This document shows, piece by piece, positions 17,086-55,120 of a stretch of DNA of 64,000 bases; the stretch's first letter is position 1, and each line of letters starts with the position of its first letter. The translations under genes were made by a program, and so were the position numbers. Location: NCBI GenBank assembly GCA_021904315.1, contig CM038910.1, positions 16,244,001 to 16,308,000 of the forward strand. Reading direction: 5' to 3'. Below the pieces are notes generated by a model. It had not been told where the DNA came from and made no database searches. It was given only the letters and a program-made list of their open reading frames with translations. Origin of the DNA: Sphagnum magellanicum (Eukaryota > Streptophyta > Sphagnopsida > Sphagnales > Sphagnaceae).

Positions 17086-19117
17086 TCAGCAGGCACTGGG
17101 TGGTGGGTCAGATTTGATACGCTTGTGGACATTTATTTGAAGTCCCTTGCTCAGCTTCGGCAATGGGAAGTAGGACTCCACATCTCCACCACAGAGCTCC
17201 CACTGGAATTTAGTAACAAGGTGGTGAAGGAAGACTGAAATCTCCAACCATGCCAGATCTGCCCCCAGGCACAGTCGTGCACCTCCTCCAAACCCAAAGA
17301 AGGGAAGTCTGTTGGCTGGATTGAGGTTCTGTTGCAAAGTAGAGAAACAACTTTAGTTCAGTCCAAGTGCAATGGAGTTACAAGAGTGGCAGCACAACAG
17401 AGAACAGAACTTCATGACTCTCTGAAGTATTCAAGCATGGATCTTCTCCCTCTCTAATTTGGCAATCCTTTTTTCTGTCAGTGGAATGATACTTCTAGTC
17501 GATCCTCTGTGCTGTGCTGTGTAAATTTCTTCTTATGGGTTGGCAGAAACTGTGATGCACCTGTCCATGGTGCCAGGGATCGAATTGTTTTGGGTTTTCA
17601 TAATTGGCAGGATCATGCTGGGCTTCTCAAATTGCACAAATCACTTTCCACCCTTTGGGAGCTACATATCCTGAAGAAAAACCAACAACAACAAGCCAGC
17701 TGGTAAGTCAATACAGATGCTGCCAGCTTCCTGAAGCTCATGGGTACATAACTTTGAGCAAACCCAAAGCTTTTATTCATACCAAATTTCCTTCCTGCAT
17801 GTGATAAGTAAGAGCTGGATATGCAATCACAGTTTTTCGTAGTGCTTTTCATGGGTCAAAAGCAAAAGTGCAGCAGTGATTGGTTGTGGCATGCCAATTT
17901 CTCCATCCCTGCTTTGCAGATAGTAATAACAAAAGTGAGAACCAAAAACCTGAAAAGGAGGGAAACAGAGATTCATTACCTTGCATTGGTACATCATCTT
18001 TAGTCTCACACTATAGAAGACCAATTGGGTTGCAGTCTTATTGCCTCTGTTGTAACCTGCAATTTTGAAACGCACACCAGAGCTTCATATTCTTCTTGAC
18101 TCGTGGTCTCTGCGGCAGACTGCATACTTTGACAAGGGTGCCAGGTAGCCAACATTGATACTTTTGCAAACAGTAAAAACTGTGCCTGATTTTTGGATGG
18201 TATATGGAATGGTGGGTTTCCAGTTTGTGAGAGTGAAATGGGAGAGAGCAGCACCTGAGGACTTACATGCTGTATGAGGTCATTTTCCTGAAGTCATCCC
18301 ATGTAAGACCTGATACTGTGTCCTTGTCTTTGGATTCTCGAATCACATTGCGCTCCGCCTGGACATTTGATGATCTTCATTGAGGTTGGTTTCTAATGGC
18401 AGATTGTGTTTTGACAGATTGCATTAAACTATGTGGTGAATTTTCTTTACAATGATGCAAGCTGATGATGAGCAAAAAGGAGGAGCAGCAAGTCAGCTTT
18501 TCTTTTTCTTTGGGTACCTGGAGTGCAGCCAAGACCTCTGGATTCTCAGAGATGTACTTGACAGCAAACAGCATAGTGCTTGCTGTCATCTCATGACCAG
18601 CAAACATCACTGCAAGGACATGACAACAGGTTTGTTCCAGCAATCTTGCCTCTGTGGTGCCTGGCAGATTCTTGTGTCGCATGTGCTCCATGTAGTCAGC
18701 ATATTGGTCTTCGTCATTCTCAGGCCTTGGCTTGCTGACCACTTCTCATTCAAGTGTCTCCACAATCCTTGTTGTTGCCTGCAAAAAAGATACACACACA
18801 CACAAGATTTCAATATATCTGCGTCATGATGATTATAAAGACAGCTCCTCCACAGCTGCAGAATGGATTGATGCTCCTGAACAATTCTTCATGTCTGTAG
18901 AAGTGTGTACCACTTACCTGCAAGGCCTGCAAGGCCTGCAAGGATTTGGTTCCAGGAAGCTTGATAGGCATGGAAAACAGTCCCTCGCTCATGATGTAAA
19001 AGTCTTGTTTCAAGCTCTCATTCACAGGTCCAGGTTGTAGTCGTGATCTCAGAAGAAATTGTGTGATTGCATTGAAAGCCAACTGCCAAGTGATTTGATC
19101 AGCTTGGGCATAAGTAT

Positions 19118-19187
<70 letters not shown>

Positions 19188-20244
19188 GATTCTTGATTGA
19201 TTAATTGATGCATCAATTCTGTGCACAAAAAACCAGGAAGAATGATGCTCTCTAGATGTTGAGCTTTATCAACAGTTAGTTTCTTGATGCTGCACTGAAG
19301 AGGAGGTTCTAAGGAGCTAGAATGATTGTATTACAATTGGGTCGTTTGAAATCTCCAAGTGTTGGTGAGCTGCTGCAGGCGAAGTTTAATATGTTTAGTA
19401 AAAGCTGTACTCACTCTCTTGGTTTCTTCTTGAACATTGATGAGTCCTTTGGTTTCCCAGGAATTGAAGCAAACAAGGACAAGCTACTCAAAGAGGAAGA
19501 CTTGGGCTCAGAGAAGCTCAGTCCGTAAGCTGTTGTTAATGAACCTTCTGGCACTCTTCCACAAGTCCCCAACCACATTCAGAGCTGCAAGCTCTTCAAA
19601 GACTTTCCTGAAGAACTTGGGATAACGTGTGATGAAGAGTCTGCCTTCTTGTGTGAGCACCCACTTGATCATTTCAGGTTTGGTTGGGATGGTGCAGAAG
19701 GCACCCAACAGATTTGACTTGTACAAGTCTCCATACCTGCAGGTGCACAGGCAGGCAAGCAGCAGGATCAAAACTGAAGTTTAGCATTTCAACATCCAAT
19801 GATCGAGTGTACTACTACATGACATCAATTCTTGAACAAGTCTAGCAGAGAGAGAGCTATAATCAGACACAAATTCTGATGTAAAGGGAAGTTGAACTTG
19901 ATCAATCTTAGAGAGGGGGGGATTGGGAAGCTAAGCTCTTTTGCTCTTTCATGAATGTTGGGTTGGCAATACTCATGCTCTTTATGTACTGCAAAGTCTC
20001 ACCCACAACAGGCAGACCCAATGAACCTGGAGGCAACAGGAATCCAAGTTTGTTCTTGCTCTGCTGCTGCTGCTGCTGCTTGCTTGCTTGCTTGCTCTCC
20101 ACAGCAACAAAACCAAAAGGAAGGAACCCAGTAAACATATGAGCAAACTGTGGAGACTTGCAGCAGCAGCAGCAGCAGCAGCAGCTCCTGCTCTCCATGG
20201 GAAGAAGTTGATGTTTCCACACTCAGTACAAATGCTTCTTCCAT
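17086..20244 (-). pseudogene. Cytochrome P450 pseudogene, paralogue of the 33.4-36.4 kb gene
   Basis: Seen: the same exon layout as the intact gene: exon 1 about 20244-19935, then 19736-19415, 19082-18918, 18778-18518, 18358-18267, 18056-17980, 17670-17561 and 17328-17086. Exons 2, 4 and 7 have identical lengths in both copies (322, 261, 110 nt). Disabling changes: in-frame stops TGA 19508-19510, TAG 19484-19486, TGA 18746-18748 and TGA 17627-17629; a 1-nt loss in exon 5; a 2-nt loss in exon 6; no GT donor after exon 1, where reading on meets TAA. Start codon, anchor and proline hinge lie in three different frames. The I-helix reads AGHEMT and the PxRx Arg is His, yet the haem loop FGGGARLCLG keeps its Cys. 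Over 71 aligned residues of exon 8, 54 are identical by hand count. Exon 3 gained 9 nt by repeat of a Gln-Ala-Leu unit. A tandem duplicate that has died. Confidence 0.92.
19121..19182. repeat. (TC)n microsatellite in pseudogene intron 2
   Basis: About 31 uninterrupted TC units between the remains of exons 3 and 2 of the P450 pseudogene. The long pure tract suggests it is young compared with the coding decay around it. Confidence 0.92.
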
Positions 20245-20599
20245 GGGTACTTGACAATTTTGCTCACCCATTTGCCCTTACGGTGGGAACTTTATTTGGT
20301 TGTTCTTGTTCTTCTTCACAAGAGAGAATCTGCCACTGGGTTTGGTTTCCTGAGCTGTAGACTGGTTTGTCAAACTGCTGCAATTTACCAGGAGCTGCAC
20401 AGAATTGTTACAATTACAAGCTTGCCATGTTTGCAGCCCAAACTTGTTTTAAATATGCTACCAGACTCCACAATGCTCCCTTTGCAGGTCAAAAGGAGAA
20501 GAGGCAGGGACGAAGGAAGGAAGGAGAGGCAGGGAGGGAGGGAAAGGAAGAGAAGGAAGAAGAACATGAAAAACATTTGAGAAACATGTAAGAAAATTA

Positions 20600-23500
20600 T
20601 TACAAAATTTTATTTTTTTTCAAAATTGATTAATCTATTTTTTTATAACTAGTTTTTTAAAATTATTGTTTGTTTTCTTGCTCTTTTAATCAAAGTTTTT
20701 ACAGAGGGTTTTTTTTATTGGTGCAAAATTTTGTCAAAATGCAAGAGAAAAAATAAAATTAGAATGGAACATTTTGGAACAATATTTGCATGCTCCCTTT
20801 TTTTTTGTAATTGCCAAATTTCAAAAAGGATTTTTTTTTTTTTTTGGGTGGAATTTTTTTTCCACCACATTTGGACTCTGATTTTAAATTGGGTACCATT
20901 TTTCAAACTGGTTTTTTATACTATTTGGACAGGTTCTAAAAATTCATCACAATTTAATGCAAAATCCCTCTTGAGATGCTAGCCATTGACACAACATCAG
21001 AAATTGAAATATATATTAGATATTATAAATATATGGCAAAATACTATGGCAATATATATATGTATTTTGGCGGATTTGACACATGTGTCCCACACAATTA
21101 ATTAATTTTTAATATTTCATTTCCAAATTTTATTTTATTTTTAAATCTCTAAAACATTTCAAAAGATTTTTCATTTTCCTTCACAAAACTTTGAGAAAAG
21201 TTTTTAGTTTTAGTTGTTCTTTTCCTTTTCTTTTCTTTTCTTTTCTTTTTTGAAGATTTTTGCATTTCTAAAAATAATATAATTTGTGCCCAAAGCTACC
21301 CAATAATATTTCCATAGCTCGGATCCGCGGGTATCAAACCAGTAGAGTGTGCCATGGTGCTTCACCCTTTCAACAGTTTCAAGCATTTTTCCTTTGGTTT
21401 TGGTGTTTGGGGGGGGGGGGGTAAGTAATATGGCTAAATTGGGGAGCTATAAATCACTAAAAAAATTATTCCATTAGTTTTGGACTTTCCACAAATTTTC
21501 CAGCCAAAACCAACTTTGTGTATAAATTGTTCTTTACAATATGGCCATAAAGTTCAGCATTTATTAGTACTTGGGGCAGATTGAAAAGATTTTTTTTTTT
21601 TTTTTTCTATTTCAGCCTTGACTCCTAATGTAAAGCACAAGTTGGGGCTGATTTCAACTTTTGCACCAATAGGAATGCTCGATTTGAAGTTGAACTGAAA
21701 AAATTTATGATACCATTGGGTATATGTAAGATATACCCGCACAATTAGGGTTTTAAAAAAAATTTAAAGTAAAATTCTATTGTATTTGAATTGTACTAAC
21801 CTAATAGTTTCAAAGTGTGAACATTTTTTTTAAAATTCTTACTAAATAATAAATTAAAAGTAGATACTCGTGTTTTTACCCTAACCCTGTGTATATGATA
21901 GGGATTTATTTACCTGCACCCTACCCATCTACCAAAAATTATAATGTTTTATACCCAGAACCTAACATGACGACAAAAAATCGATCCTAATATACCCTTG
22001 AGTGAGTATATATTGAAACACACACAACACCAGTGTTAGGGTTTAGGGTTTTATTCTCAAACCCACTCAACACTAGGCTCTTATTCTCAAAATACCCCAC
22101 CAGGCAGGGTCTTTGTAAAAACACATTCTATGTGACACCAGGTATCAAAGGAAAAAGTGGGGAAAAAAAAAAGACGCAACAATTATGCTCTATAAGCGTT
22201 ACCTCTAAATACACTACAAACTCTTTGTAGGTCATCACGATTATTGAAAAGTCCTCAAGAGAGAGTGCACACAAAAATAGATCTATGTACTAAATTTTGT
22301 CATTACATGTCGTATTAATAATTTTCTTAATGCACATTTCAAATAGGGTTTTTTTATTTCAATTTTATGGCAAATGCACAAGAAGATTTAGCCAAATTTG
22401 TTTATAGACCAAAGATGAAAGTAATTTTTTCTTTTAAGAATCCTTTTATATTTTGGCTACTTGTTTAGGGTGATTTTTTCACAAAAATCTTTGTATGTGT
22501 CGGAATCATTTTTTTTTTCAAGTCAAATTAATGAAAAAAATTACCACCACCACGGCCCTCCCCCCAAAGAATACTATTCATCCAAATCTTCACTATTTGA
22601 ATGGGCAAAGCTCAAACTTCTAGAGGATTTTATTCTCCCCAATTTTCCATTCCTGATTTAGTCATGAATTGGAAATTCTCCTTTTGGGCTAGAATTGAGA
22701 ACTTCAAGTAACATGTGCACTCTTGGTTTCATTAAGCTCAATCTCTGTACTCCCCCAACTTCATCACCTACTTTGTTTTGTCATGTCATTCGTGGATATG
22801 AAGTTCATCCATGAACATCAACATTTCATCCATAAAATACTCCGAAGACTTATATCCCTCTATTCAATTTCCATTGCTTTTGTATATCACTAGCATCAAG
22901 ATCTAAGATGTGTGACCAAATATCTCATTTGGTACTTTCTTCTTATACAAAGATCAAAGGAACCATTAATCGAGAAGTTAGGCCAATTTTTTAGCCAAGG
23001 GACTATTATGCTTAACCCATTTTCAAATGTCAAGTTTGTATAGATTTGATTTAGAGAATTTGGGGTAGAGTGATTGCCACTAAAACCAAAGCTAGGAAAC
23101 ATTTTGATAGTCTATACATAGAAATATTCATCTTGAAACCATTGTCACAAGAGATGTAAAACATGTGAAAGGTGCCAAAACCTTCGGTGTTAGTACAAGG
23201 AGGATGTTGCAAGTTTGAAATTGTATATAGAAATGCTAGGGGTTTGTGCACCCCTAAATACAAAATATATATATATCAAAAAAATTTGTCTTAAAAACTG
23301 AAAATTCTTTGTTAAAAAGTTGTTGTAATTTGCATTTGCTCTGTGCAACATTTAAATACAATTCAATAAAGAAAATATTTAAAGCAATTTAAAGGCACCA
23401 ATTTGAACAATTCATTCATCATATTTGTTTTCTTCACACCTAAATAAAAGCTTATGAGGCTATTACAACATTTAAGTGCAAGTTTATTATACCAAACTCC

Positions 23501-26500
23501 TCAAAACAAATCAAAGTTCTCATCTTAACAATCTCATTGCTCACATAAGCCTTTTTGAGCCTTAAACACATGTCTATTCACACACATTGTACATTTGAAT
23601 ATATTTCCTACCCTAATCTTATAACCCTCAACAACATATAGACAAGGTTAGTCATTCTTGCATGAGTATTTCTTATTTGGGTGTACAAGAGCCCAATACA
23701 ACATACTTAACTATCAAGCAATCTCAAAGATTTTTAAAATTATAGGTCTAACGTGTTGTTATTAGGTGGCGGATTTGAAAGTTGGGTTCATAGTGACATA
23801 TGAACACACTAATACCCAAATTACATTGGTACTCACAACGAAAGGCAAGACAATTTTGGTCACAACAACCTAGCAAACATCAAAATTAAGTTTGTTATAA
23901 GACCCCATTCCATGACTATTTAATCCTAGGACAATTAACTCATGGAAATCTATTGTTGATATTAAGACTACAAACAAGCTAAATAGTACGATTAAACATT
24001 AAAAGAATATTTAATTTTTTTCTCAAGCTTTGTCATTAGAAGAATTGAAATACATGTATTTAACAACTTTTTCAGATACCACACACAATTCTCACACAAA
24101 AACATGCCATATAAGAGTATGTTGATTGTTTCATACTCAACTTGATACTTAAATACTTTTAATACATTCCTTTAACAAAGTTGTTTGTCAAATGTATTGA
24201 TCATACCTTAAACTCTAAACTCTACCCATTTATTGAATTAATGAGGTTGTATTAGGCAACCATCGAATGTCAAGCTACCATTCACATACTTAAATAAATA
24301 AGTAATGCATCTTGTCAATGTCTTGGATAGTATGAAGTATAAAACGTAGATGAGATTCATTGTATCATAATTATGCACCCTTCATGTGTGAAGTTAGGTA
24401 GGCTAGAATAGATGTGTACCTTTTGTCAAATGGCTCCATCAAATGTTATGCAACACATGATGAGGTGATTGCAGGTTATCATGGTTCATTTTTGGTGAAT
24501 AAAACATTTCATAAAAGTTCATTCAATGGTGCTAAAATGGTAGTTTACTATGGTGTTATTGGTGAAGTGGGGGATTACCTGATTTTAATGAACTAAATAA
24601 AGTCCATGTAAACAAAAGTTCAATAAATTTTTCCTTAGCATATATGTCAAGAAAAATTAAAATCCAACAAAAAAAATTATGATATGAACTTTTGGAAATA
24701 AGGCCCATTTTAGGCCATTCAAAATTCATAAATTTTAAAAACAATTAAACAGAAATATATATATATATGTTAGTTAAGTACCAACAAGATGTTGTGAATA
24801 AAAATGATAGGTAAAAATGCATTAATATAGAAATGCAATTACAAAATTAGTCCATAAGATTGGATTAAAGCTCATTACATTACATCGATGGATATTTTTT
24901 ACAATTTAATTTTTTTAAAAATTCAAGTTGACAATCTTAATGCAATTGTAAATTTGGCACATTATGATTTTATGGCATGTCAATGCATTACACTTAGCAA
25001 AAATTGCATTGTGATGCAAAAAGGAATCACCATAATTTGTAATCCACCCAACAATGATTGGCAATAGTTTTATCAATGTATGTCATTCAAATTTGAGGAA
25101 TAATCATAGATGCCACCATGATTTCATTGTGCTGGCATCATATTTAATTACACATACAATCATCATTAGTTTTTTTTTTTTTAAATGATTATTTATCCAT
25201 TTTGGCCTTTTGTGATTGTTTTTATCAAATGAATCAAGAGGCATACTCATTGCTTTCATTCTTTCCTCTTTCCTTTTTTGCACTTTTAGTCATTGCTCTC
25301 CATTTGCTTTATCATGGATTCTCTATTCACTTCTCTCACTTGTTCTCTTGTGTTTTACTTTTCTTACTTTATGTTTTGTTGTGAAAACTTTGGTGTAACT
25401 TGGTCTTGTGTTTTCTACTACTAGGCATAGTGTTTTCACTATTTCATGTTGTGTTTCTACTTGTTACATTTTGATTTTGTAATGAAAATATATTGTCAAT
25501 GTTGTCTCTTTTCCATTGCAACATCAATGATGATGTTACTTGTTACCTCAACATTGTCAAAGCTGCACTTTAAGTTGCATCATTTTAGTTGGTGTTTGGT
25601 TTTAATGTTATTATTTTACTAGAGGAAAGTCAAGGATTAATGATTGGCTTTGGAACTATTAATTAGTTGTAATAAAAAATTTTGATTAAAGTTTAAGTAA
25701 TAACAAATATAAGTTGCAATCATGACCAATTGCAAGCTAATTGACAAGTTGTTGAATGAACTTTTTGACTGTCCTTTATATATACATCCATGATACATGC
25801 ATATATTATCGAAACCCTAGCCTTCAACTCACAACCAATCCTAACCTTTAGTTTGTGACCAAGGCTAGGGCATGAAAATGGGAATAGGTTAGGAGAGTGC
25901 CTGGGATTCAAACACACTTCCACAATTGTGAAAAAATGTAAGGAAAACAATCCTAAACACTTCTAAATGAAAACCACTTTGAAAGTTATAATTGAACATG
26001 AATTGTAAATCTTTGGGACAAAAATGTGAATAGTAAATATAATCCAAATTGGCTTTCAATATATCATTGGAAAGTTTTTGAAGCATAAACTTCAAAAGTG
26101 GGTTGGCATTCTCCATTGGAATTGTGAGGTAGTTAAAGGTAAAGCATAGTTAGGTGGTTCACTTTTGACATTTTGAAAATTTCACATCTTACACTAGCTA
26201 CAATTTTTGCAATTGGGTGAAAGCACACTACAAAACCACTTTAGGCAAGAAAATGTACTCTTTTCTAGGTATATTTTGCTTTATTTTGGGTGCAATTTTT
26301 CTTTGATTTCATCTAGCATTTTGATGAACATATAAAATGGATTTTGATACAAAAGCTTCCAACATAGATCTTGTCATTTTTCAGATGAAAATAATTTTCA
26401 ACAAATTGTTTTTTTTCAACACACTTCTGTTCATTTGAATGAAAAACTTGTCTAAATGCTTTTTGTGAAATCACATGAGTCAAACTTTTCAATTGTAATT

Positions 26501-27470
26501 GAAATGGTACAATCAATTCATATTCAATATATGACTAAATACTTCATCAAGTTTTGCAATTGTTTGAATCATTTTTAGAATATATTTCCACTTTATAGTA
26601 CATCATGACAACATCTAAATTCTCACAATATACTTTTGAATCATTTAATATTAATCAAAAAATGTAGTTTCCTTTGACAATTGCATTATTTGACCATTGA
26701 ACTACCTTATTTTGAATATAATTTATGAAAACCTCTTTTAATATTAGCTTTGTGAAAATTGAAAGTCGCACAATTTCAAAAAACAATATTTGTGACTACA
26801 ATTTTTGGCCACCATAGTGTGCTTTCACCCAATTATCAAACTATAAATCCTATAATTATCCCATACACTTTTGGTCACAAATATTGGTAAGCCACCCAAT
26901 ATATATTCTTAGACATGTGATTGGTCAAAAAATCCATGTGAAAAATTGAAAATTTTCAATGTGAAATGGAAAAATTTGATGAAAATCATGGTGTTTAAAA
27001 TTTTAGATGAATTTCTTTTGTATTGTGAAATTGTTAATGCATCTTATTTTTAATCTTCATTTGATGGTGGCCTATTTCATTTTATTTTTGACATTATTAT
27101 GACATAATTTTGAGTACACATTTTTCACTTTCTTTATGTGACAAATGTAATGTCATCATTTCAAAAATCTAGTATGAGTCTTCTTTTTTCCTTATAACTT
27201 AGTTATAATTTTTAATATGATTCCCATTAAAGTCTATTGCAACATGGATAATTTTATTTTTTTTAAAAATGAATGTTCAATATGGCTTTATATTTAAAGC
27301 TCATTAGCAATTTTTAAAAATTACAATTGTGTTAGTCTAAATTATCCACCTAACTATATTTTCACCCTTAAATGGCCAATCCAAAACCATATTCATATAT
27401 GGATGAAACTATATGGATGAATTTTTGTGCATTGCAATTTTACATCCAAGTAAATTTTTTAAAACTTTCT
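20600..27470. other. AT-rich intergenic stretch between the P450 copies
   Basis: No gene supported. Holds poly-T and CTTTT-type tracts (about 20828-20842, 21225-21249), a G tract near 21410-21421, two TTTAGGG-like units near 22036-22055 and (AT)n near 23263. All frames longer than 60 codons are AT-biased and lack domains. Confidence 0.5.
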
Positions 27471-27479
27471 TAAGCTACC

Positions 27480-28400
27480 TATATACCTAGGTTAAACTAC
27501 CTATTACATAAGTATATATAGGTTTATATTATTTTACCTAATATACCTAACTTACATACTTATGATACTTACTTATATATACCTAGCCTTAAATGACATG
27601 TGATATGTCCTTTAGGTTTAAGCCTAAATGTCATGTGCCCTATGTGGTCTAGGTTTAAGTACCACGTGGCTTAATTGTGGATTTAACATAGGTGCCAATT
27701 AGCCTAACCTAAGCACCATTTAGGTCATTTAGGTCTAAGCCCAAAGTAGGTGGCCTAGGTTTAGGCCTCTAGACTAGGTGCCACATGGTATGGCCTAGGT
27801 TGAAGACTAGCCTAAGTGCCACATGGCATGCTTTAGGTTTAGATTTAGCTTAAATGTGACCTAGGTTTATGTCTAATAGAAATGCCTAACCTAGGCACCA
27901 TGTGGCCTATGTTTAAGCCTAATCTAAGTGCCATATTGCATGGCTTAGGTCTAAAAGTAGCTTAAGTGCCACATTGCATGGCTTAGGTCTAAGTCTAAAT
28001 CTAACTACCACATTGCATGACCTAAGTCTAGAAGTAGCTTAAGTGCCACAATGGCATGGCCTAGGTCTAAATCTAGGTTAGCTATCACATGGCCTGATAT
28101 AAAATGCCATGTGGCCTTTTAAACTTAGTTTAAATGCCATATGGCATAGGTCTAAGCCTAGCCTATGTGACATGTCGCATGGCCTAGGTTTGGTGCCATG
28201 GGGCAATATATGTGGTATAAACATAGGTGCCATGTGGCCTATGTGACACCTAGCCTAGGCTTAAGTGCCATGTGGCATATGTGGTTTGAATATAAATACC
28301 ACATGGCCTAGGTGTCACCTTGCCTAGCCCTATGCCTATGTGCCATGTGGATTAGGTTTAAGCATAACATAGATCAATATCAATAGATGAAATCCATCCA
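27480..28400 (+). repeat. Degenerate minisatellite, CCTAGGTTTAAGCC / GTGCCACATGG type
   Basis: Dozens of diverged units combining a TAGGTYTAAG core with a YTAAGTGCCACATGGCATGG core, unit length about 38-50 bp and irregular. No coding content. The TAGGTTTAA core resembles the repeats at about 46.8-47.7 and 60.2-60.8 kb, but those lack the GTGCCACATGG half. Confidence 0.8.
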
Positions 28401-30250
28401 CCTTAAGTTTATAGTTGAAAACAACTTTCAACTATAGTGGTAAGTGTCATTTGCAACTAAAATAACTTAAAGTGGTATTGACATGGTGTTAACACATGGT
28501 TAATGTTATAATTGAAATGTCATTTTCAAATTGTATTTGTCAACTTTCATGATTTGCAATTGCAAAATAATATATTACAATTGCAAAAACCATTTTTCAA
28601 CTAGGTTTGTTGTTTTCAATATTTTTAGTCGAAAATGTAATTTGCAAATGTGAGGCTTTCCTCCTAATGATATTGTTGGTTGTTCACATTGGCTATTGCC
28701 CCAATTTTCTTTCATCAAACTATATCAGGTTTTCATGTTCTATCCTTTGCTATCAAATAATGCCAATTAAGAACTTTGGTGAGCTTTGTTTCAATTATAG
28801 TGGGACCATTGTAAAATAAATATTTTGAAGTTTATGTTTACTTATGAGCACGTCATTGAGCACATGAAAAATCATCATGATATAGTCAATAGTATTATGC
28901 ATTCCCACAATTTGTAATGACACTCAATTTTGTTTGAAGATTATTTGAGTTATGGTGACAAATTAGTAAAATGAGATTTGAAATGATTTTTACCATTTTC
29001 ATTACGAAACTTTACATTTTTCATTCTATATATTCTTTCAATATCCAAGTTGGAAAATTTTACAAACCTACATACCTTTACCTAATGGATATATTAAACA
29101 AAATATATATATGCCCAACATTTATCACAATTTTATGAAAGATATTTGCAAATGCACAAAAGACAAAACAAGATATCTAGGCAAAATATGATCATGCCAA
29201 TGAAATCATTAGATTTAATATATTTTCTCAACTATTATATCACTACAATAAATCCAATCAATTTATGTTTTGAATGATCTAAATTCCCACCCATTCTTTT
29301 GATTGCATTCCCAAAGATTTGATACTTAGATTTAAAATGAAATTATTTTACATCTATCATCTGAAATGATAAATTTTCATTTGCAAATTCCTAATAAAGC
29401 AACCATGGCCCAATGATTTTATTTTTTCAAATTTCAGATGTTGCATCATTGGGTAGCATCCGAAGAAGGATTTAACATTAAATGGCAACACATTTTAGAA
29501 CTTGTCTAAACACCTTTTTAAAAACTAGTTAAAAAAATACTACCAAACTAAAAGCATAGTCCAAATGTGGCAAATTGTTCTCAAAAAAAATAAAAATCTT
29601 CAAAATTTGGTTTTTTTTCAGAAAAAAAGAAATATTGTGCCAAAATATCCCCTTTTATTTTTATTTCTTACATTTTGGCAAAATTTCATGCAAGAAAAAG
29701 AACATTGCTAGGGCTATATGTTGCCCCAAGAAGGTCACTTCAATTTTTTTAAAACAATGAGCAAAAAAAAGGGTGTAACTAATTCATAAGGAAATAAATT
29801 CTGTAATTTATATAAAAATGTAAATAGGGTGCCTAGAATTCATAATGAAAATCCACCTAAAATATTTACAATTTTAATGAAATATGCTTTCAATAATCCA
29901 TTATTTCATAGCACGCTAGAAAAAAAAAACCCCCCTTTATCTTAGGTGTTTTGGAAAATATAACTTTGCCCTTTGGTGGACTAGATTATTGGAAGATAAG
30001 CAATGAAAATCCATGCATGATATGATGCCATGGATGTTTATAACTTATGTTCATAAAGTAAGACATACATGTAGTGTGCATGGTCAAAATGTGCAAGTGG
30101 TCGAAATGGAAAAAGATTGTATTGTCATCTAGTAGGCGCCCTATACGAGAGGTTTACCACAAAATTCATCATAACTTTGCTTGCTTGTTATGGTAACGTT
30201 CCTTTCATGATGATAGACCTTGTATATACTACATACTTGCAAGGGTGAGG
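28401..30250. other. AT-rich intergenic, no gene seen
   Basis: Short frames only, none with ordered domains or splice-consistent neighbours. Confidence 0.45.
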
Positions 30251-30268
30251 TGGAAGAAAGCAAACAAT

Positions 30269-32109
30269 CTAAGCAAACAATTCAATGGACTTAAAGTACA
30301 CAATATAGATAGATACATAGAAAGTAGTTGAATAGTTTGATTGTCCTTTGGTTGTTGTAGATGGATGGGAGGATTTTTGAAACTTTTCCAAAGCTTCTAG
30401 TTCAATTTCAGGATGGTGGGTGGGTAGCCATGTATGGACCTGTAATCTATCTGCATTCTTGGTCATATTATTTTGTACCCACAAAAACCATGAAGAAGAA
30501 ACCGTAGACAATGAAAAACTTGAAGTTTCATAAGCATAAAATGCAAAGGTTACCTCCAACAATCTAGTCAAAACCAACTCCGTGCTTGAATACAGAAAAT
30601 ACTCAATGAGCTTGCAGCTTTTGGGACCATGACTAGTAGACTCATTGATGCTTGTAGCTTTACAGTCCACCAGCACAGATTGTTATAACAACAGAGCCTA
30701 CCAGCAACAATTTTTGTATGTGAACCCACTTAGTCAAAATAGCATGGCAGCTCCAGAATGTCTGGTTTGCAATTCTGGACCAGAAATTGCTCACTGCAAG
30801 CTCCAACAGAAACCATACATTTCACACAAAATTTGAAAGAAGAAAAAATGAATTAAGGTACCAAATGCAGCAAAAGACTACAAATTAATTTGACCCACAA
30901 CTTTTGATAGTGAAATGGTAGAAAAGAAACAAGGCAAGTGCTTTACTCGCTGAATTTGGGTTTTACCAATACATGAAATTAGTTCAATAATCACCCAGTC
31001 TTTTAGGAGTGCACAGAAACAATCTGGGCACACATACAGAATTGAATCTCCATACCCATTACTAGCCCTCTAACAAAACTTTGTTGACAGGGTACAACAG
31101 ATTATTCAAAGCAGATGATTGAATCTCAGATTTCCAAGATGCAAATGAGATCAATTTGTGCATTGCATTGTCAAAAACCTCAAAATCAAAGCTTTGTGAA
31201 TCAATGCATGAGTCAAAAACCTTAAGCCATTTTGAACTCAAAGAAATGGAAGTGTTGTCATTCATTAGTTGCTGCACGAGATTCTCTTGTATCTTTCAGC
31301 AACAGGGATATCACTGGCAGCAAACCAGTTGTTAGTCCTGTTGTCATCTAAGATCAAGTCTGCAATGTCATCTCCATCATCAAGAGGATGAAACCTAATT
31401 ATCTCAGAGAAATCCATCAATGGCTTTCCCAATAGATCTCCACAACTTGACATATCAAAGAGGATCAAAGCTGATCATGGAGAAAAAATCCATCAACGGT
31501 TTTCCATGTAGATGTCCACAACTTAACATATCAAAGACAAAGTCCACATCTTCAAAGTATATCTTGTGAGAGATCTATATTCTTTATATTCCTCACGGAT
31601 GTTGTTTTCTGCTATTTCCTCTAAGTCTGAATCCAATGCTTCCCTGAATGCATGGTCCATGAAAAGGTCCTTTGCACATCAAGTAAGATGTGCTCAAATG
31701 TGAATAAGAACTGTTGACAAGTTCCCTCAACAGAGATGCTATCTTTTGAAGTAAATTAGTCTAGAGATTTCAAGAAGGAGCACATAACAGAGGCCACTAT
31801 AAAAAAACAGTCTGCTGCTCATGATCTGGATCTATCCACAAATGCAGAGATTCACACAGTCAAGTTACTTCTCCCTCAAATTGGAATTCCTCAATTGGCT
31901 TCTACATTAGCAACCTGAAATAGTGTTTAGGGTTTAGGATAAACCCTATAAACCCAAGTCTTTGGTATCTGTACATCACCCTTCAACTGAAAGGTTCTGT
32001 CAGTCCTCCATGATCCAGCTTTTAGAGCTTTTCCTTGGGAAGGATGCACATCTGAATCAGGTTCTTTCTCCAGAAATTTGGGTTTCACCATTGCAATTTG
32101 CAACAACAT
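30269..32109 (-). pseudogene. Decayed gene-like region of unknown family
   Basis: Reading the minus strand from 32109, protein-like pieces occur at about 32109-31927, 31660-31510 (acidic, Glu/Asp-rich), 31468-31265, 31277-31062 and 30676-30269. They change frame and carry stops between pieces. Two copies of a 76-bp unit lie in tandem near 31382-31533, encoding variants of CG(D/H)L(L/H)GKPLMDF in different frames. This could be a host gene fragment or a multi-exon gene I cannot splice. No function inferred. Confidence 0.3.
31382..31533 (-). repeat. 76-bp tandem duplication inside the decayed coding region
   Basis: AATCCATCAA at 31411 and 31487 mark equivalent points of two units that match along their whole length with scattered changes. 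Because 76 is not a multiple of 3, the duplication shifts the frame. Confidence 0.7.
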
Positions 32110-32330
32110 TTTTAGTGATTTTGAAGTAATTCACCATAGTGAATTTGTAAATAACGACAAGTGAACAACAAGTGCTATGAAATTTACAAAATGCTAACTT
32201 GTCAAGAGATCTCACTACAAGGAACGATGAGTGCAAAACACTACTAAATAGTTCATTCATTTTTGAGTGATTTTGAAGAGAATCACTGTGATGAATTTGT
32301 AAATGACAATAGTGAACAAGAATTGCTACA
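32109..32330. repeat. Direct repeat, about 70-bp units spaced 151 bp
   Basis: A unit starting TTTTTAGTGATTTTGAAG at 32109 recurs, diverged, at 32260, both followed by GAATTTGTAAAT and a GTGAACAA segment. Non-coding as far as I can see. Confidence 0.6.
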
Positions 32331-32399
32331 ATTATTTTTTTCAAGTAATAAAAACTGAGTTTTATTCTCAAGTGTAGAAATGTGGATCAAGAAAATTTC

Positions 32400-33411
32400 T
32401 TAATACTATAAAATTACTTGATATAACTAAATGAAGGTCACATTATTATCTCTCCAATTTGTATGTCAGATTTTTCGTTTTATGTTGACCATGTGGATTT
32501 TGAGGCTTAAATGGGTGGGTTTAGATTTGTGTTAGTTCTCAATTAAAGAATGGGATTTAAATTGTGTTAATCCTAGATGAAAGAGCTTGTGTTTTCTTTA
32601 GAGGATTGACTCTGAAGTCACATGGAACCACCTGTTTCATCTGCCCTGTGTCGGGATTGAAAGACACATCCATCAATTTAACACACAAGAATCATTCGGC
32701 TCCTCCCAGAACCTATTTAGATCCACTTGCAGGAGAATCATCAGAAGGTTGGTAACACAACATCATTTGAATGACAAAAATTAGTTCTGCAAGTGATGAG
32801 TGTTTTGCAGGGTGAGAGATACTCTTTTACAAAGAGGCTTGCTTGCTCAAGTCTCACATAAACGATCATGTGCAGCAGCGCTGCAGATCCACTGATTGCA
32901 GTTTCTCACAAGACCAAAGTCCAAATGTCATACAGTTGAACTTGGCAATCCATTGTTGAAATAAATGAAGTGTTACATAAAGCAGGTCTATCAGCTAACA
33001 ATGTCAGCTGCTCATATATGACTCTCTAAGGGTATCTGAAGAATGTGGGCCAGATCATTGTACTAGTTTAGCTGATCTTCCTTGTGGTCCTTTCTAATAC
33101 TACTAACTGGTCCAGGTGGTGTACAGATCCAGTCTATGTAGCATCAATCAACTACTACTACAGAAGAGGTCAAAAAATTATGTGTCAGTATATTTTACTA
33201 AGTGCTTGGTGATGTTGCAAGTGTACACATACAGAGAGTGCGTCACAAAATATCAGCTAGTTAATTTTAGTGCTGCACCCAGTGTTTTAAATCAAACATC
33301 TGAGGGAAAGTTTGGAGCTCGTCTCTTCATCTTTTGCTAGTCAGAGCCCCCGGGTTCAAAATTAATTTTCCAAACCTGCTTGTGAAATCTTAATGACAGT
33401 TTTGTTTTGAT
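32400..33411. other. 3' flank of the intact P450 gene
   Basis: The part next to 33411 should hold the 3' untranslated region of the minus-strand P450. A plus-strand frame at about 32564-32755 starts at GTG and is not accepted as a gene. Confidence 0.4.
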
Positions 33412-34833
33412 TTATAGAGATGTCTCAAACATGGGGTCTGTTGACTTGACGCATTTCTTCACATGAAGCTGAAGTCCCTTGCTCAGCTTTGGCAATGGGA
33501 AATACGACACTTCATCTCCTCCACATAGCTCCCATTGATATTTTGTAACAAGGTGGTGAAGGAAGATGGATATCTCCAGCTTTGCAAAATCGGCGCCTGG
33601 GCACAAGCGTGGGCCTCCTCCAAATGCCAAGAAGGGAGGTTTGTTTGCTGGATTGACAATCTCCTGTACATAATTACAGAAAGACATATTAAATTTAGTC
33701 AGACTGTCTCGCTGGAGTAAGATTGAGGACATAAGCACAAAGAAATGCGACCAAAAAAACACTCATGACCAAAAGAGAGAATTTTCTTATGTCCATCTTA
33801 TTCTTGCACATCAGATCTCAGTACATAACTTGTTGGCTACTATGATTAGTATGCAAAGACCTGACCAACTAATCAACCCTCCACCCCCCCAGTCTGATCT
33901 CTCACCCAAGTTTCCTTTGATAATCAGCTGCTGGTGATATTCTAGTATTCTGAGTACAATGTTTGTGGGGAATGGGGGATCCAAGTCAGTTTATATATAC
34001 GTACCTTTTGATGGCGCCATGGGTTGAATTGTTTGGGATTTTCATAGAAAGCAGGGTCATGGTGAACTTCCCGAAGTGCACAAGCCAATTTACACCCTTT
34101 TGGAACCACATACCCTGAAGGAGAAAAAAACAAGCAATGCATCAAAGCAATGAGTACCCAATTACACTCCAGGCAAGTTCTAACTTCTTCCTGAATCTCA
34201 ATTGAATCTACTACGCAGACTGAATAATTCTTTTTTGCAGCTTCCAACCTTGTTCATAAATTGCACAATTAGAGTCATTTGTGAGAGAGAGACTGATATA
34301 ATACCATGCAGTGGAACATCTTCGATAGCCTCACGCCACAGAAGAGCAACAGGGGTGCTTAGCCGCAATGTCTCTGTTATAACCTGTAATCCATTCATGC
34401 ATGCACCCAGGAGCCCTGTAATATTAGAGTACTTCCTCAAATACTCAAATCACACAATTATGTACTTGTGGCCCACTGACTGTCTGATGCAGCAGCACCA
34501 GTGCAATGCATTCACCTGACCCATGTGATTCATCATGAGGTCATGTCTTCAAGCAGAGATAAAGACATAGGCTGAGAGAGAGCTTTGAGGTGTTTCTTAC
34601 ATGCTGAGTGAAGTGCATGCTCTTGAAGTCATCCCATGTTAGCCTTGAGTCACTCCCATATTTAGCTGCTTGAATCTTTTCATGCTCAGCCTGGAAGATG
34701 ACAATCAGAGAGATTCAGCCTTCAAAATGTCAGTGACTGACCATGTTGCTTAGGAGGAGAAGCTTCAGGGACAGTGACTGTGTCTTCTGTGACACAGGTC
34801 TACAACTTTTGCAACTGATGATTGATGTTGAGC

Positions 34834-34872
<39 letters not shown>

Positions 34873-36419
34873 AGCTTACCCGGAGCTCAGCCAAGACATC
34901 CGGATGCTCTGAGATGTACTTAACAGCAAAGAGCATGGCACAAGCTGCTGTCTCATGACCAGCAAACATCATCCCAAGCATGTGAGAGCGTGTCTTTTCC
35001 AGCAGTCTCTCTTCTGTCATGCCAGAAAAATTCTCACGTCGTTTATTCTCCATGTAGTCAGCATAATGGTCTTCATCATTCTCAGGCCTGGGCTTGCTCA
35101 CTACATCTCTTTCAAGTGTCTCAATAATCCTTGCCCTTGCCTGCAAATCCCAGAAACAAAAGAAAACCCTTACAAACATAAAAGACCCAACCCTAAGTCC
35201 CTAATGGAAACATGCTGCAACCCTAAGTCCTGAATGGGACCATGCCACTCTTCTCAAGAATTCCTCCAGTTCTATCAATCAAGCACATGAGTGAAGAGTC
35301 AAAACAAGATTTCAATGTATTGAAATTCATTGCAGCTCCTAGTCCTAGACTTGCTGGTTTTTTTGAGTCTTTCCCTACCTGCAGGGCTTTTGAGAATTTG
35401 GTGCCAGGAAGCTTGATGGGTATGGCCAGAAGTCCTTCACACAAAATGTAAAAGTCTTCTCTCAATGCATCATTGACGGGTCCTGACCGCAAGCGTGATC
35501 CCAGAAGAAATTGGGCAATGACGTTGAATGCCAACTGCAGCAGCAGCAGCAGAAGAAGAAGAAGATTCAAGAATGTCAAATTGCTGAAAGAACATGAAGA
35601 AGAAACTGAGTTGCAAAGCTTGGGGTTGAGAGAGAGTGCTACTGCTACTCACACTCTTGGTTTCTTCTCGGACATTGACAATCTGTTTGGTTTCCCAGGA
35701 ATCAAAGCACTCAAGGACCAGATCCTCGACGACAGAGACTCGGCTCCTGAGATGCTCAGTACGAAGACCATTGACGACGAACTTGCGGGTGCTCTTCCAC
35801 TGCTCCCCGACCGTGTTGAGTGCCGTGTCGCTTCCTAAAACATCCTTGAAGGACTTGGGATACCCAGTCACGAATTGTTTGCCATCGCGAGCCAGCACCC
35901 ACTTGATCATGTCAGCTTTTGTCGCTACCACGCACAAGGCGCCCATCAACTTGGTCTTGAACATATCTCCAAATCTGTCAAGAAGAAGAAGAAGCAAAAA
36001 GAATCATTCCAGTGCCCACAGAAAGACTTCTTCATAAGAATCTCAAGAAGAAGAAGAAGAAGAATTGTGTGAGGATTTGTCACTGGGGCTTACTTGATGC
36101 GATGCTGAGCCATGAAAACAGGATTGGAGGTGTTCATGCTCTTCATGTACTCCAAGGTTTCTCCAATCAGAGGCAGACCCAATGAGCCTGGAGGCAACAA
36201 GAATGAAGAAGAAGACTTTGAACTAGTCTCATGTGAGAAGTTCTTCGTCTTCATCTCGTCGGCAGAAGATGATGATGATCTCCGTGACAGCAACACAAAC
36301 AACATGGAACTTGCCAGTAAACATAGCACACATGCTGCTACTACTTCGCTAACAACAAAATGCTGCTGCTGCTGCAACAACAACAACATTTGTAGGGGCG
36401 ACGAAGCCAAAATCTCCAT
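33412..36419 (-). CDS. Cytochrome P450 monooxygenase, CYP85 clan, intact 8-exon gene
   Basis: Seen: eight exons at 36419-36094, 35974-35653, 35534-35379, 35140-34880, 34690-34601, 34383-34305, 34114-34005 and 33663-33412 join without a stop into 531 codons plus TAA; every intron (118-341 nt) has GT..AG ends and the phases match. The ATG at 36417-36419 is the first AUG below the likely promoter: no other CAT occurs on the plus strand from 36420 to 36766. Hydrophobic anchor about residues 22-44; proline hinge PPGSLGLP 76-83; I-helix AGHETA 328-333 with the oxygen-activating Thr; K-helix ETLR 389-392; PWRH 443-446; haem loop FGGGPRLCPG 462-471 with the Cys ligand at 469. Known: CYP85-clan enzymes are ER-anchored haem monooxygenases acting on brassinosteroids, abscisic acid, triterpenes or diterpenes. 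Inference: substrate and subfamily cannot be assigned from sequence alone. It is slightly longer than usual because of a Ser/Gln-rich N-terminal linker. Confidence 0.92.
34839..34868. repeat. (AG)n microsatellite in P450 intron 4
   Basis: Thirty bases of AG dinucleotide on the plus strand, lying about 11 bases from the exon 4 donor site of the intact P450 gene. On the transcribed strand it is a CU-rich tract. The pseudogene paralogue has its own long microsatellite in a different intron, so the two tracts arose independently. Confidence 0.9.
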
Positions 36420-36780
36420 GATGAAATGAATCTGTTGACCCAAGTTTTCAGATCCTACTGGCTGGCTTCTGTGCACAACTCCCAAATCTCTTCCCTGCAA
36501 ATGGAGGGATTCACCGAGCAATTGATTTCTAGCTGGCTGGCTGGCTTGTTTGGCTTAACTGCTTGAATGCTGAAAAAAATTTCCAGCTGAGTGAGAGACA
36601 GATCAGATCAAGTCCACCTAGATCAGCTGCACCTGAAAATATATTCAATACTCTTCAGGCACAGTTACAATCACTCAAGAAAGACTTCTTCACAAGAGCT
36701 ATTGATGTTCAAAATTATTGCAAAACACACACACACCGTGAAAGATTGAGTTTTGAAGAAAACCCACATTCTCAAAACCA

Positions 36781-36788
36781 TTTATACT
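36781..36788 (-). promoter_or_regulatory. Candidate TATA box of the intact P450 gene
   Basis: Read on the minus strand this is TATAAATG, the only good TATA-like site in the 400 bases upstream of the P450 start codon. Transcription starting 25-32 bases downstream would give a leader of about 335 nt that contains no upstream AUG. Inferred from position and consensus only. Confidence 0.35.
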
Positions 36789-37111
36789 AGTGTCTTGCCT
36801 CTCTTCCTTCAACAAGAAGATTTGGAGATGATTGATCATAGCAACTTCCACCACCACCACCACCACCATCACCATGACAGAAACTACTCCATCAATTGGG
36901 GGGGGAAAACAAAAACAAAACAAAACAAAACAAACCTACGTCAATTTTGAAAAAACTTCTGTCATAATTTTACTATGTGCAACCGCGTAGGCCATTCTAC
37001 ACCAATGGGGGGTACCATTCATTCTTTTTTGCATCACACTCTTTTTAGTCCAAATTCTCTGCTTTGACATTCCATGTTGGTTGTTGGTAGTGCGGGATAC
37101 CGAGTAAGGAC

Positions 37112-44600: not shown

Positions 44601-46450
44601 AAACTTGATTGAGTTACTATAAAAGTATAATTTGAGAGAAAAATTATTGTTCATGTGAAAAATGAGGAGTTTAACTTGAACACTATGACTTCTACATTAA
44701 AAATAATTATAAGTTGTGACATTTTGGGTTTGGAGGAAATTTATCAAAGCATTTGCTTTGCACATGCATTGTCCAAGGCTTGTCAATATGCTATAACAAA
44801 TGAAAAAGTTTGTAAAGACTTGACATATGTTTCTACTAAAACTACATAAAAAAGAATTGCGTAAATGTATAACTTGGCCAAAAAAATTAGGGAAAGGTTG
44901 ATAAGAATGAACTAGAACATGTGTTGAATATGGTTTAGCCCTAAGGAAATTAAATGCACTAATGAAAACAAGGCAACCTTTTTATCTAATGTATTATTAC
45001 AATGACAAATATCTATGTTTTAATTTTTTATAATTAGTTTCCATTAGTGGGAAGCTCTAACAAATTCATTTTTCTTTTACAAATTTGCAAACAAAATTAT
45101 CCTTTTTCAAGAAGCATTGCATTTTCAGAAAGTAATTATCCTCTATTATAACAAACAAATTGTTGTTTTGATGATTGCACGAATGCCTCCTCCTTTGACA
45201 TGGCATATCTCTCAAATCATTGTTGATGTATTTTCCCCTATTGTGTGTACGTGTGTTTTTAATCAATCTAAAGGTTCTTGGCTGTTAAGTGATTCTTTAA
45301 ATTTTACCATTTCCATTTGTTTGAAATTGATAAAAGAATCTAGAATTTCAATTTCTTTTGATAATGTTATGGAAAATGAGTCTATTGTTGCTCTTAAGTT
45401 AGATTTTTTGTTTTCTAACATCAAAAAAGAGGTTTGTTGTGGTTTAGATTTTTTTCTTTTTTTCTTGAAAAAAAAGGAAGAAAATAAAGCTCATAACATC
45501 ATGTTGTCTTTGATGTTAAATCCTAGGTTTAAAAACTTATGTTTAGTGTCTTCATTCAATTAAACAAGGTCAATATTGAAGAATATGATAGAAAAACCTT
45601 GTATCCCATGTTGTTGAAATGTTACAATCATTTGCATCCCTTGTCTAAAAATGTCAATGTCGACTAAGGTGTTGATCAATATTATAGTTTGAACATTTTT
45701 AAAATGACAACAAGTACAAATGAATTGACAAAGGAGTTTGTCAATAGGGACTACTAATTCTCAAAAAGCTTCAAGTGGATGCAAAACATATCAAATGTCC
45801 TTTTCAATGTTGGGAGAAACATGAATCAATGTTTCTTGCAATTGGATTCCTAGCCCATCAAATCTTAAGCATTATTAGTTCACAAATCGAAATTGAAAAG
45901 ATTTTTTCTTGGTAGGGATACTTACTAATATTAGGAGATGTTGTTTATAATCAGATAATTTAAATAAATAAATTTTTGTGAACAAAAATTGGCCTAATGA
46001 CCCTAAGATTAGTTGTTACAAATCATTTTTTAATTTAGTGGAGCTACTTGAAATTAATGCAAAGATAGAGGATTTAGAAGAATTTGAAAGAACATTTGAA
46101 AGATATGAGATTTTGAAAACATATATTATTATAGGTGTAACATTTTAATCATTCATTAAACAAGCTTGTTTTTATTTATAATTATTTCTTAAATAATTTT
46201 TTTCTAAAAATGAATATAAATTTGAAATTTGGTTTGTGAAAACCAAATATGAAAATCAACTATTATCACATTTGTGAAAATTGCTTGGTTTGAAAACTAG
46301 CTTGGTTTTTAAATTTTTAATTTGATACCCTAGTCGATTATTTTATATCTAAATTTTATTTTTTAAAGAACTAAGTCGGTTCTTTGAAATGTTAGGGGAA
46401 GAACCAGAACTGATGGTTTTTTTTTAAAAGGAGAGGATTACCCAACGCTA
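41607..46450 (+). mobile_element. Degenerate hAT transposon with transposase remnants
   Basis: The left end TAGTGTTGGGT and the reverse complement of the right end TAGCGTTGGGT agree at 10 of 11 bases. Outside lie GTATACAT (41600-41607, overlapping the first T) and GTATATAT (46451-46458), 7 of 8 identical. Inside, on the plus strand: a TTTGTCGTTGGTGTTACTAG-type degenerate minisatellite (41940-42360), a GC-rich segment (42560-43500), a BED-like zinc finger remnant (CITC..LKKHVNANH, about 43970-44110) and a hAT C-terminal dimerisation remnant (SSQIEIEKIFS with PFQCW upstream, about 45790-46030). Stops and frameshifts throughout; inactive. Confidence 0.78.
43958..46140 (+). pseudogene. hAT transposase remnant
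   Basis: The N-terminal part shows a BED-type C2H2 zinc finger with LKKHVNANH. The longest open piece is at about 45117-45563. From 45787 the PFQCWEKHESMF, FLAHQILSIISSQIEIEKIFS and FVNKNWPNDPKIS-like order of the hATC dimerisation domain can be followed through one TAG and several frame changes. The catalytic region between them is too eroded to place residues. A second, independent copy of the same protein lies at 54240-55120. Confidence 0.75.
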
Positions 46451-46489: not shown

Positions 46490-46830
46490 TTTTTTTTTAA
46501 AAACATACAAAAGTGAAATAAGACGTGTAAATTTTGGTCTACCCCTAAGGAAATTGAATACCCTAATGAAAGTAAGGAATTCATTACAAAACATTTAATT
46601 TTCATTTTCTATTGAAATTTTTGCATGAGATATAATCTAACCTATTCTTTTGCCTTGCAAATTTGCTAATAAAATTGTCCCTTTAAAGGAAGCTTTACAA
46701 TTCAAAGAAATTATTATGCTTTGTTATAAAATAATGTGAGGATGCCTAGAAAAATGCCACCTCCTTCGACATGACACATTACCTAGATTATTGTCGATTA
46801 CCTTGGCCATGAAATCTTCTCTTCTTAAAA
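46490..46830 (+). pseudogene. hAT transposase fragment, truncated by a repeat
   Basis: This matches 44925-45225 of the preceding element in the same orientation: CCCCTAAGGAAATTGAAT, CTTGCAAATTTGCTAA and GCCACCTCCTTCGACATG all have counterparts there in the same order. It ends where the T-rich inverted-repeat family begins (about 46838), implying the repeat inserted into, or was joined to, an older hAT copy. Confidence 0.6.
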
Positions 46831-46837
46831 CTAATAT

Positions 46838-47750
46838 TGAAGTACATTCAAACTAGGTTTGTTTAGGTTTGGCCCTAGTTAGCCTAGGTTTAACTTAAAT
46901 TTAATGTTTAAATCTAGTTTAGGTTTAACATTTAAATGTGGTTTAGGTTTAGTCTATAACTTTAAATTATAACTTTAACCTTTCGGTTTACCTTATGTTT
47001 AAACTAGGTTTAACTTTTACATTAAACTTAAGTTTAACTTAGGTTGAGCTTTTAAATTTAGCCTACGTTTAACCTTTAGGTATAGTGTAGGTTTTAAGTT
47101 TAAATTAAATTTAACCTGGATTAGTTGGGTTTAGCCTAGGTTTAATCTTTAGGTATAGTTTAAATTTAGGCTAAATTTTACCTTTAGGTATAACCTTTAA
47201 GTTTAACCTAAGTTTAGTTTAGGTTACCTAGGTTTAATTCTATTTAACTATATTTAATTAAAATTTAATCTTTAGGGTAAATTTTAATTTAGCATGTGTT
47301 TAATTAAGTTTAGCTTAAGTTTAACCTTTAAGTTTTTCTTAAATTATGCTCAAGTTTAACCTTAGTTTAGCCTTTAACTTTAGGCTTTAAATTTAACCTA
47401 TGTTTAACCCATATTTATCATCTAGGTTTAGCTTGTAGGCTTAACATAATTTTAACTTATGTTTAATGTGTAGGTTTAAATTTTGAGATTTAACATGTAG
47501 GTTTAGTTTTTTAAGTTGAATTTTTAGGTTTAACCTTTAAATTTAACTTTTAGATTTAACTTAAGTTTAACATAGGTTTAGCTTGTAAATTTAACTTTTA
47601 AGTTTAGCTTAGGTTTAGCCTTTAAGTTCAGTTTAGGTTTAACTTAAATAGCCTTAGGTTATGTTACCTGTTAACTTATAATAACATGGGAAGGCTTTAG
47701 TTAGCCTAGGTTAACCTAGGCTAAACTTAGTGGGTGGCCTAAACTAGGTT
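46838..47750 (+). repeat. AGGTTTAACCT-rich repeat, copy 1
   Basis: About 900 bp of degenerate TTTAGGTTTAACCTTTAAG-like units. It starts with CTAATATTGAAGTACATTCA, which is also the outer start of the inverted copy at 60815, and near its inner end has TATAATAACAT..GGCTTTAGTTAGCCT, matched in that copy as well. Thus it is a defined repeat family rather than random low complexity. Confidence 0.75.
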
Positions 47751-54239: not shown

Positions 54240-55120
54240 TCTTATATTATTATTGATTCTTTTGGCCTTGTTATGTCTACTTGTATTCTAAACCAGTTGA
54301 AGGGTCGTTGATTGTTAAGCAATGTAGTAAACTTTGCCATATCCATGAATCTAAAATTCAAGGATGAAATTGATTATGCAACCTTTGACAACTTAATGAC
54401 AGAAGATGCAAATGTTGTTTTTATGTTATCATGTTGGGCTTCCAACATAAAAAAAGAAGTTGGGGTTTTGGATTCTTTTTTTCCTTCTCAAACAAATATG
54501 AAAAAAATTCCCATAATATGTTTTTTTGTTGTTGGATCCTAGGTTTAAAAACATTTATCTTGTGTCCTCACTTATTGGTCGTGAGCAAGGTAAGGCAATT
54601 GTTGAAAAATATGATAACTTCTAAAGTGTCATTATCATTTACATCCTTTAGCTAAATTTGAAAAGGGCGTTGTTGATCAAAGGGTTGATGACAACAACAA
54701 TTTGGATATCTTTGAAATGACAACCAACACATTTGAGCCAATAGCAAAAGTGATCAATAGAGAGCTTCTAATTTTCAAGCATTATCGAATGAATGTTAAA
54801 AATATCAAATGTCCATTTCACTGGTGGTAAAAAATGAAAATATGTTTCCTACAACTGGTTTATGTGCTAAACAAATTTTAGGGATAGTTGGATCCCAAAT
54901 TGATATAGGAAGGATCTTTTCCTTAGCTGCAATCTTTAGGAGATGCAGTTTATAATCAAAAAATTTGGACAAAGTGACATTTGTCAACAAAAATTGGCCC
55001 AATGATCTTAAGATAAGTTGTAAATCCCTTTCTAGCTTGGTAGATTTGATTGAGACTAATGTTAATTTAAAAGAGGAGTTTGAAGGAGCTTTTGAAAGGG
55101 ATGAAGTTAGGGAGTTGTAA
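54240..55120 (+). pseudogene. hAT transposase C-terminal remnant
   Basis: Open pieces at 54312-54542 and 54431-54655 are followed by a frame-shifted hATC domain: CPFHWW near 54810, GIVGSQIDIGRIFSLA near 54880-54927, an RRC segment near 54937, then FVNKNWPNDLKIS near 54980-55020 and an acidic end near 55080. It parallels the remnant at 45240-46130 but has different stops, so the two decayed independently. Confidence 0.78.

Follow-up and report, generated by a model that had tools for sequence, protein, structure and literature searches.

Probable recent capture of a cytochrome P450 gene segment by a Helitron family of the peat moss Sphagnum magellanicum

The closest described counterparts of the elements treated here are the gene-capturing Helitrons of maize and Mothra, whose host is rice. 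As described in PMC4683698, these elements are non-autonomous, start with TC and end with CTAG, carry a hairpin near the 3′ end (in Mothra 13 bp before the end of the element), insert between A and T, and hold a gene fragment that became fixed in the family ahead of its spread. The moss family that we describe resembles them in all of these respects, and it appears to have taken its cargo from gene A, a cytochrome P450 (P450) gene in a 64,000-nucleotide stretch of Sphagnum magellanicum contig CM038910.1. This stretch, hereafter the window, corresponds to C4:16244001-16308000 in the genome searched, which comprises 31 contigs and 438,994,042 bases. Gene A and its tandem neighbor, pseudogene B, both lie on the minus strand and have an exon layout in common (Table 1). 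The moss elements differ from Mothra and the maize Helitrons in their host, in the presence of the donor gene, which stands 0.8% from the consensus of the copies, and in having a sibling element with other cargo, a peroxidase. We found no report of Helitron gene capture in a peat moss among the titles and abstract openings of the papers that our literature searches covered, and looking through the main text of PMC9946827 for words that start with “helitron” gave none.

A search of the genome with the protein of gene A returned, besides A, B, and a paralogue D, matches to exons 3, 4, and 5 at ten further places. Their amino-acid identity ranges from 70 to 96%, with low values where the match enters an intron. 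When window positions 33000-37000 were used as a DNA query, ten places on nine contigs matched, all over query positions 1312-2816; all 21 of 21 first-look candidates were scored, and since counts of places are lower bounds, the segment is present at least ten times outside gene A. The copies are 94.6-96.9% identical to A and end at the same two positions of it, 35689 and 34185, and the junctions of the cargo are identical in all ten copies fetched (L031 and L033-L041). The recurrence of these two junctions in every copy points to one capture that preceded the spread, and the retention of introns in the cargo indicates that it was taken up as DNA rather than as a retrocopy.

Each copy lies inside an element of 2652-2680 bp that starts with TC and ends with CTAG, or in one case with TTAG. 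The host base is A before the element and T after it at all ten insertion sites. A 3′ hairpin, GTGACC-AAA-GGTCAC, with a 6-bp stem and a 3-nt loop, is placed 9 nt before CTAG, or 13 before the end, near the ~10-12 nt expected of Helitrons; it is perfect in nine elements and one base off in L035, and 2 of 200 shuffled sequences fold as well. The elements thus combine a 5′ TC, a 3′ CTRR, a hairpin near the 3′ end, and insertion between A and T, the marks of Helitrons as described in PMC4683698. Judged by eye, their two ends are not inverted repeats.

At two or fewer mismatches, the 5′ end of the family occurs 86 times in the genome and the 3′ end 48 times; the reversed controls gave 0. Pairing of the ends yielded 29 pairs, one of which was dropped because it shared its 3′ end with another, leaving 28 distinct elements shorter than 7 kb, 10 of them with P450 cargo. 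One sibling, L042 on C6, shares 84 bp of the 5′ end (95% identity) and 326 bp of the 3′ end (98%) with the P450-carrying elements, and its interior is unrelated. Peroxidase sequence (PF00141; two of three frames scanned), presumably of class III, lies in another, a 6.8-kb element at C4:25757487-25764282. We read 2.5 kb of this element (L043, C4:25759800-25762300), its continuity between the two ends being assumed. Positions 545-2501 of that query are 99% identical to C12:11765184-11767139, further matches lie on C12 from 11.55 to 11.80 Mb, and the first 431 bases have matches scattered over several contigs. The peroxidase segment is likely a second recent capture by the Helitron family that carries the P450 segment.

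Three observations argue for gene A as the donor: exons 1-2 and 7-8 adjoin the segment only in A, D and B align with A along the length of the gene, and a search of the window at up to three mismatches found neither 5′ nor 3′ ends of the Helitron. We infer that A donated the segment to the element in one recent capture. Between A and the consensus of the copies, 12 of 1489 sites differ (6 of 623 in exons and 6 of 866 in introns), and in the cargo the copies depart from that consensus at 0 (L034) to 30 sites. The cargo does not include exon 8 and therefore has no heme cysteine, which makes it unable to produce a P450. Beyond the consensus, the exons of the copies have accumulated about 32 nonsynonymous and 9 synonymous changes by a crude subtraction, and a stop is present in one of the copies, L041. 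No purifying selection was seen on the captured exons, which look neutral and may simply be drifting.

Over the whole element, the mean divergence from the consensus is 1.0% (range 0.2 to 2.3%), with L034 the nearest at 5 of 2666 sites. Of the 267 changes, 179 are C-to-T or G-to-A and 37 are of the reverse kind, an excess that suggests methylation of the copies. Half of the C-to-T-type changes fall in L039 and L041 (51 and 38 of the 179), as if these two had been methylated more heavily or for longer. To convert divergence into time, we used a rate of 1.3-2.0e-9 substitutions per site per year. It comes from our own pairing of the peaks of synonymous divergence (Ks) in Sphagnum, 0.406 and 0.643, with the whole-genome duplication ages of 102-122 and 189-247 million years ago (Ma) with which they are consistent (PMC9946827); date ranges are wide because this rate has two calibration points. 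Capture and mean spread would then fall roughly 2-8 million years (Myr) ago, after the two Sphagnum reference species, one of them S. angustifolium, diverged at about 16 Ma (PMC9946827).

The presumed donor is an intact gene. As the preliminary description of the window had it, A reads through 531 codons without an internal stop in eight exons. All its introns are GT-AG. The protein matches PF00067 with 226 bits against a cut-off of 22.8 (E 1.1e-66). Its translation contains AGHET in the I-helix, ETLR as the ExxR motif, and FGGGPRLCPG as the heme-binding cysteine loop, motifs typical of P450s and shared with those of CYP90 and the CYP85 clan. The nearest solved structure is that of the brassinosteroid enzyme CYP90B1 (PDB 6a17; E 2.5e-86 over residues 71-519), followed by CYP120 and taxadiene 5-alpha hydroxylase. 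With CYP90B1, the one member compared, A shares 157 of 441 aligned residues, or 35.6%, below the >40% amino-acid identity that defines a P450 family (PMC3862569); membership in CYP90 was rejected on this basis, and A is tentatively placed near the CYP85 clan. Some Selaginella CYP90 genes have eight exons, as A does (PMC3862569). Given so distant a nearest solved relative, the earlier suggestion that the locus traces the loss of a step in specialized metabolism is doubtful.

Gene B was correctly recognized as a tandem partner with the same exon architecture, and exons 2, 4, and 7 are indeed equal in length in the two copies (322, 261, and 110 nt). The top exon alignment between A and B has a blastn E value of 2e-62, which excludes chance resemblance, and ten codon blocks are 63-82% identical. 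The introns, searched with blastn at E 0.001, gave no match beyond one 26-base stretch of simple repeat. A tblastn search at E 1 of 22 flanking loci, 110 kb on each side, found no further P450 copies beside the pair. B retains its introns, carries disabling lesions, and has an intact paralogue nearby, as expected of a duplicated pseudogene; a processed retrocopy was rejected because of the introns. In these features, tandem position included, it resembles ordinary unprocessed P450 pseudogenes of plants and stands out by its apparent age alone.

The lesions of B had been undercounted. The lost splice donor stands: A and D have GTAAG at the end of exon 1, and B has no GT at the matching place. 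Instead of four stops and two frameshifts, we count five stops in the A-homologous frame across 424 compared codons: two of them in exon 2 and a single one in each of exons 4, 6, and 7. Frameshifts number at least three. Exons 5 and 6 each break frame, and exon 1 presumably has one or more further shifts, given that an anchor-like stretch and a PPG stretch lie in different frames there. The codons at the five stop sites are AGG, GAT, AGA, TGG, and CGG in A and AGA, GAT, AGA, TGG, and CGA in D (Arg, Asp, Arg, Trp, and Arg), so that arginine codons do stand at such sites as reported, at three of the five rather than two of four. Exon 3 of B is 165 nt long, 9 nt more than in A (156), the extra length being in frame and at a tandem repeat.

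The age of the pair is best seen from paralogue D (C15:3115716-3111994, minus strand), an intact gene of 525 residues and eight exons with the same phases as A. By the Nei–Gojobori method (NG86), the synonymous divergence dS is 0.824 (0.64-1.08) for A-B over 419 codons, 0.709 (0.58-0.89) for A-D, and 0.846 for B-D, and the nonsynonymous divergence dN is 0.215, 0.145, and 0.239, respectively. A is nearer to D, with 364 of 518 residues identical, than to B, with 269 of the 424 codons compared. The A-D interval includes the older of the two Ks peaks and excludes the younger, and chromosomes 4 and 15 both derive from ancestral chromosome C (PMC9946827), which can be linked to C4 and C15 on the assumption that contig numbers follow chromosome numbers. 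The A/B duplication probably goes back at least about as far as the older whole-genome duplication, and a recent duplication was rejected on the dS of 0.82 and the divergence of the introns.

A and D are under purifying selection. Bootstrap medians of dN/dS (omega) are 0.21 on the branches of A and D together and 0.32 on that of B, which was the higher in 938 of 1000 replicates; the proposal of a retained paralogue beside a dead one is borne out by the low value for A. The dN excess on the branch of B corresponds to a dead stretch of 0.064 substitutions per site (95% interval −0.017 to 0.125). In a neutral simulation, at least five stops in 424 codons arose with P 0.001 at a dead-branch distance of 0.02, 0.021 at 0.04, and 0.163 at 0.08. 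Distances of 0.04 to 0.064 translate into some 20-50 Myr. The dN excess and the five stops probably place the death of B tens of Myr in the past, a weak estimate with a wide error. The death had been called datable; the interval from dN excess is too wide for a date that stands alone.

The reading of B as freshly broken beside a retained copy in a young tandem pair draws on the tandem arrangement, the common strand, and the common exon layout, and the length of the dead stretch as estimated from dN is compatible with it. Its young-duplication part is refuted by the data above, and the remainder has to contend with a dS of 0.82, introns that cannot be aligned, five stops, three or more frameshifts, the greater closeness of A to a gene on another contig than to B, and the low probabilities of so many stops at distances of 0.02 and 0.04; we regard it as highly improbable. 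Still harder to credit, indeed close to negligible, is an origin of the ten copies as segmental duplications, retrocopies, or Pack-MULE captures instead of Helitron cargo. Partial gene copies across nine contigs would be expected of such processes too, and terminal inverted repeats were judged by eye only. Yet the introns speak against retrocopies, the visible ends are not inverted repeats, TC, hairpin, and CTAG (TTAG once) lie between a host A and T in every case, and a sibling shares both ends around a different interior. A regulatory reading of the amplification, in which the fragment copies act on A in trans through small RNAs or chimeric transcripts, could appeal to ten copies of 1.5 kb at about 96% identity and to a C-to-T decay suggestive of methylation. 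It seems very unlikely to us, as the copies look neutral in their surplus of nonsynonymous changes and methylation of an element requires no such role. Only as a very unlikely speculation would we offer the composite idea that this moss Helitron lineage has recently been sampling genes one after another, the P450 and separately the peroxidase, and that its cytosine-methylated P450 copies, about 96% identical to A, feed small RNAs that tune A in trans.

We consider a history of ancient duplication, old death of B, and recent capture from A very probable. An ancient tandem duplication, probably no younger than the older of the two whole-genome duplications, would have produced A and B, and that genome duplication would also have left D on C15. 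A and D would have stayed under purifying selection, while B would have lost its function long ago and decayed as an unprocessed pseudogene. Much later, roughly 2-8 Myr ago, a single event would have brought 34185-35689 of A, together with its introns, into a non-autonomous Helitron. The resulting composite would then have spread, presumably through rolling-circle transposition, to ten or more places. Several observations sit less easily with this history. No partner within 20 kb was found for 57 of the 86 5′ ends and 20 of the 48 3′ ends. Only 862 of 1000 bootstraps put the dS of A-B above that of A-D, leaving the order of the splits unsettled, and the interval on the date of B’s death includes zero. 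The ratio of C-to-T over T-to-C rates in B (1.44) is not distinctive beside A (0.90) and D (1.70); methylation-type decay of B was rejected for this reason. The most diverged and presumably oldest copy, L039, has a raw age of ~11-18 Myr, although C-to-T-type changes account for 51 of the 61 in this copy, and this excess probably inflates the figure.

Table 1. Gene A, pseudogene B, and the putative donor segment in the window
Feature	Position	Strand	Basis or remark
Putative donor segment of A, from the last 37 nt of exon 2 through exons 3-6 and their introns into intron 6	34185..35689	-	DNA search
Gene A, intact P450, 531 aa, 8 exons	33412..36419	-	Open frame, all GT-AG
Gene A exons 1-4	36419-36094, 35974-35653, 35534-35379, 35140-34880	-	
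Gene A exons 5-8	34690-34601, 34383-34305, 34114-34005, 33663-33412	-	
Pseudogene B, dead tandem paralogue	17086..20244	-	Exon-wise alignment; 5′ limit from the preliminary description, homologous start uncertain
B exon 1 remnant, donor lost	ends ~19930	-	
B exons 2-5	19736-19415, 19082-18918, 18778-18518, 18358-18267	-	
B exons 6-8	18056-17980, 17670-17561, 17328-17086	-	
B exon 2, two in-frame stops	19415..19736	-	
B exon 5, frame broken	18267..18358	-	92 nt (A 90, D 96)
B exon 6, frame broken	17980..18056	-	77 nt (A and D 79); stop at Trp of A and D

Elsewhere in the genome, six exon-8-like matches with 42-44% identity to A lie within 225 kb at C9:1562233-1787559, which suggests that related P450 genes form a further tandem cluster there; similar matches were seen on C3, C11, C13 (two), C16, and C18. 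A 202-aa open frame at window positions 1837-2445 looks to us like the beginning of a reverse transcriptase of copia type, going by a motif that we assume to be typical. A Pfam search of seven other open frames of the window, this one included, gave nothing at E 0.01. Two diverged repeat copies, at 45210-46108 and 54240-55104, are 65% identical over 920 columns, and AT-rich repeat arrays at 46810-47713 and 60334-60831 match each other in opposite orientation. Scans of the window for tRNAs and Rfam families gave nothing.

Taken as a whole, the observations of the preliminary description were partly confirmed and its interpretation was partly supported. The A/B pair itself is ordinary, and older than had been claimed. 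Gene capture by Helitrons is a known phenomenon, of which the P450 capture from A is a recent and testable further case, dated more tightly than the death of B. It is a clean one, with the donor still present and ten full-length copies sharing common junctions. If the history proposed here is true, the lesions of B should recur in S. angustifolium, and the ten Helitron insertions should be absent there.

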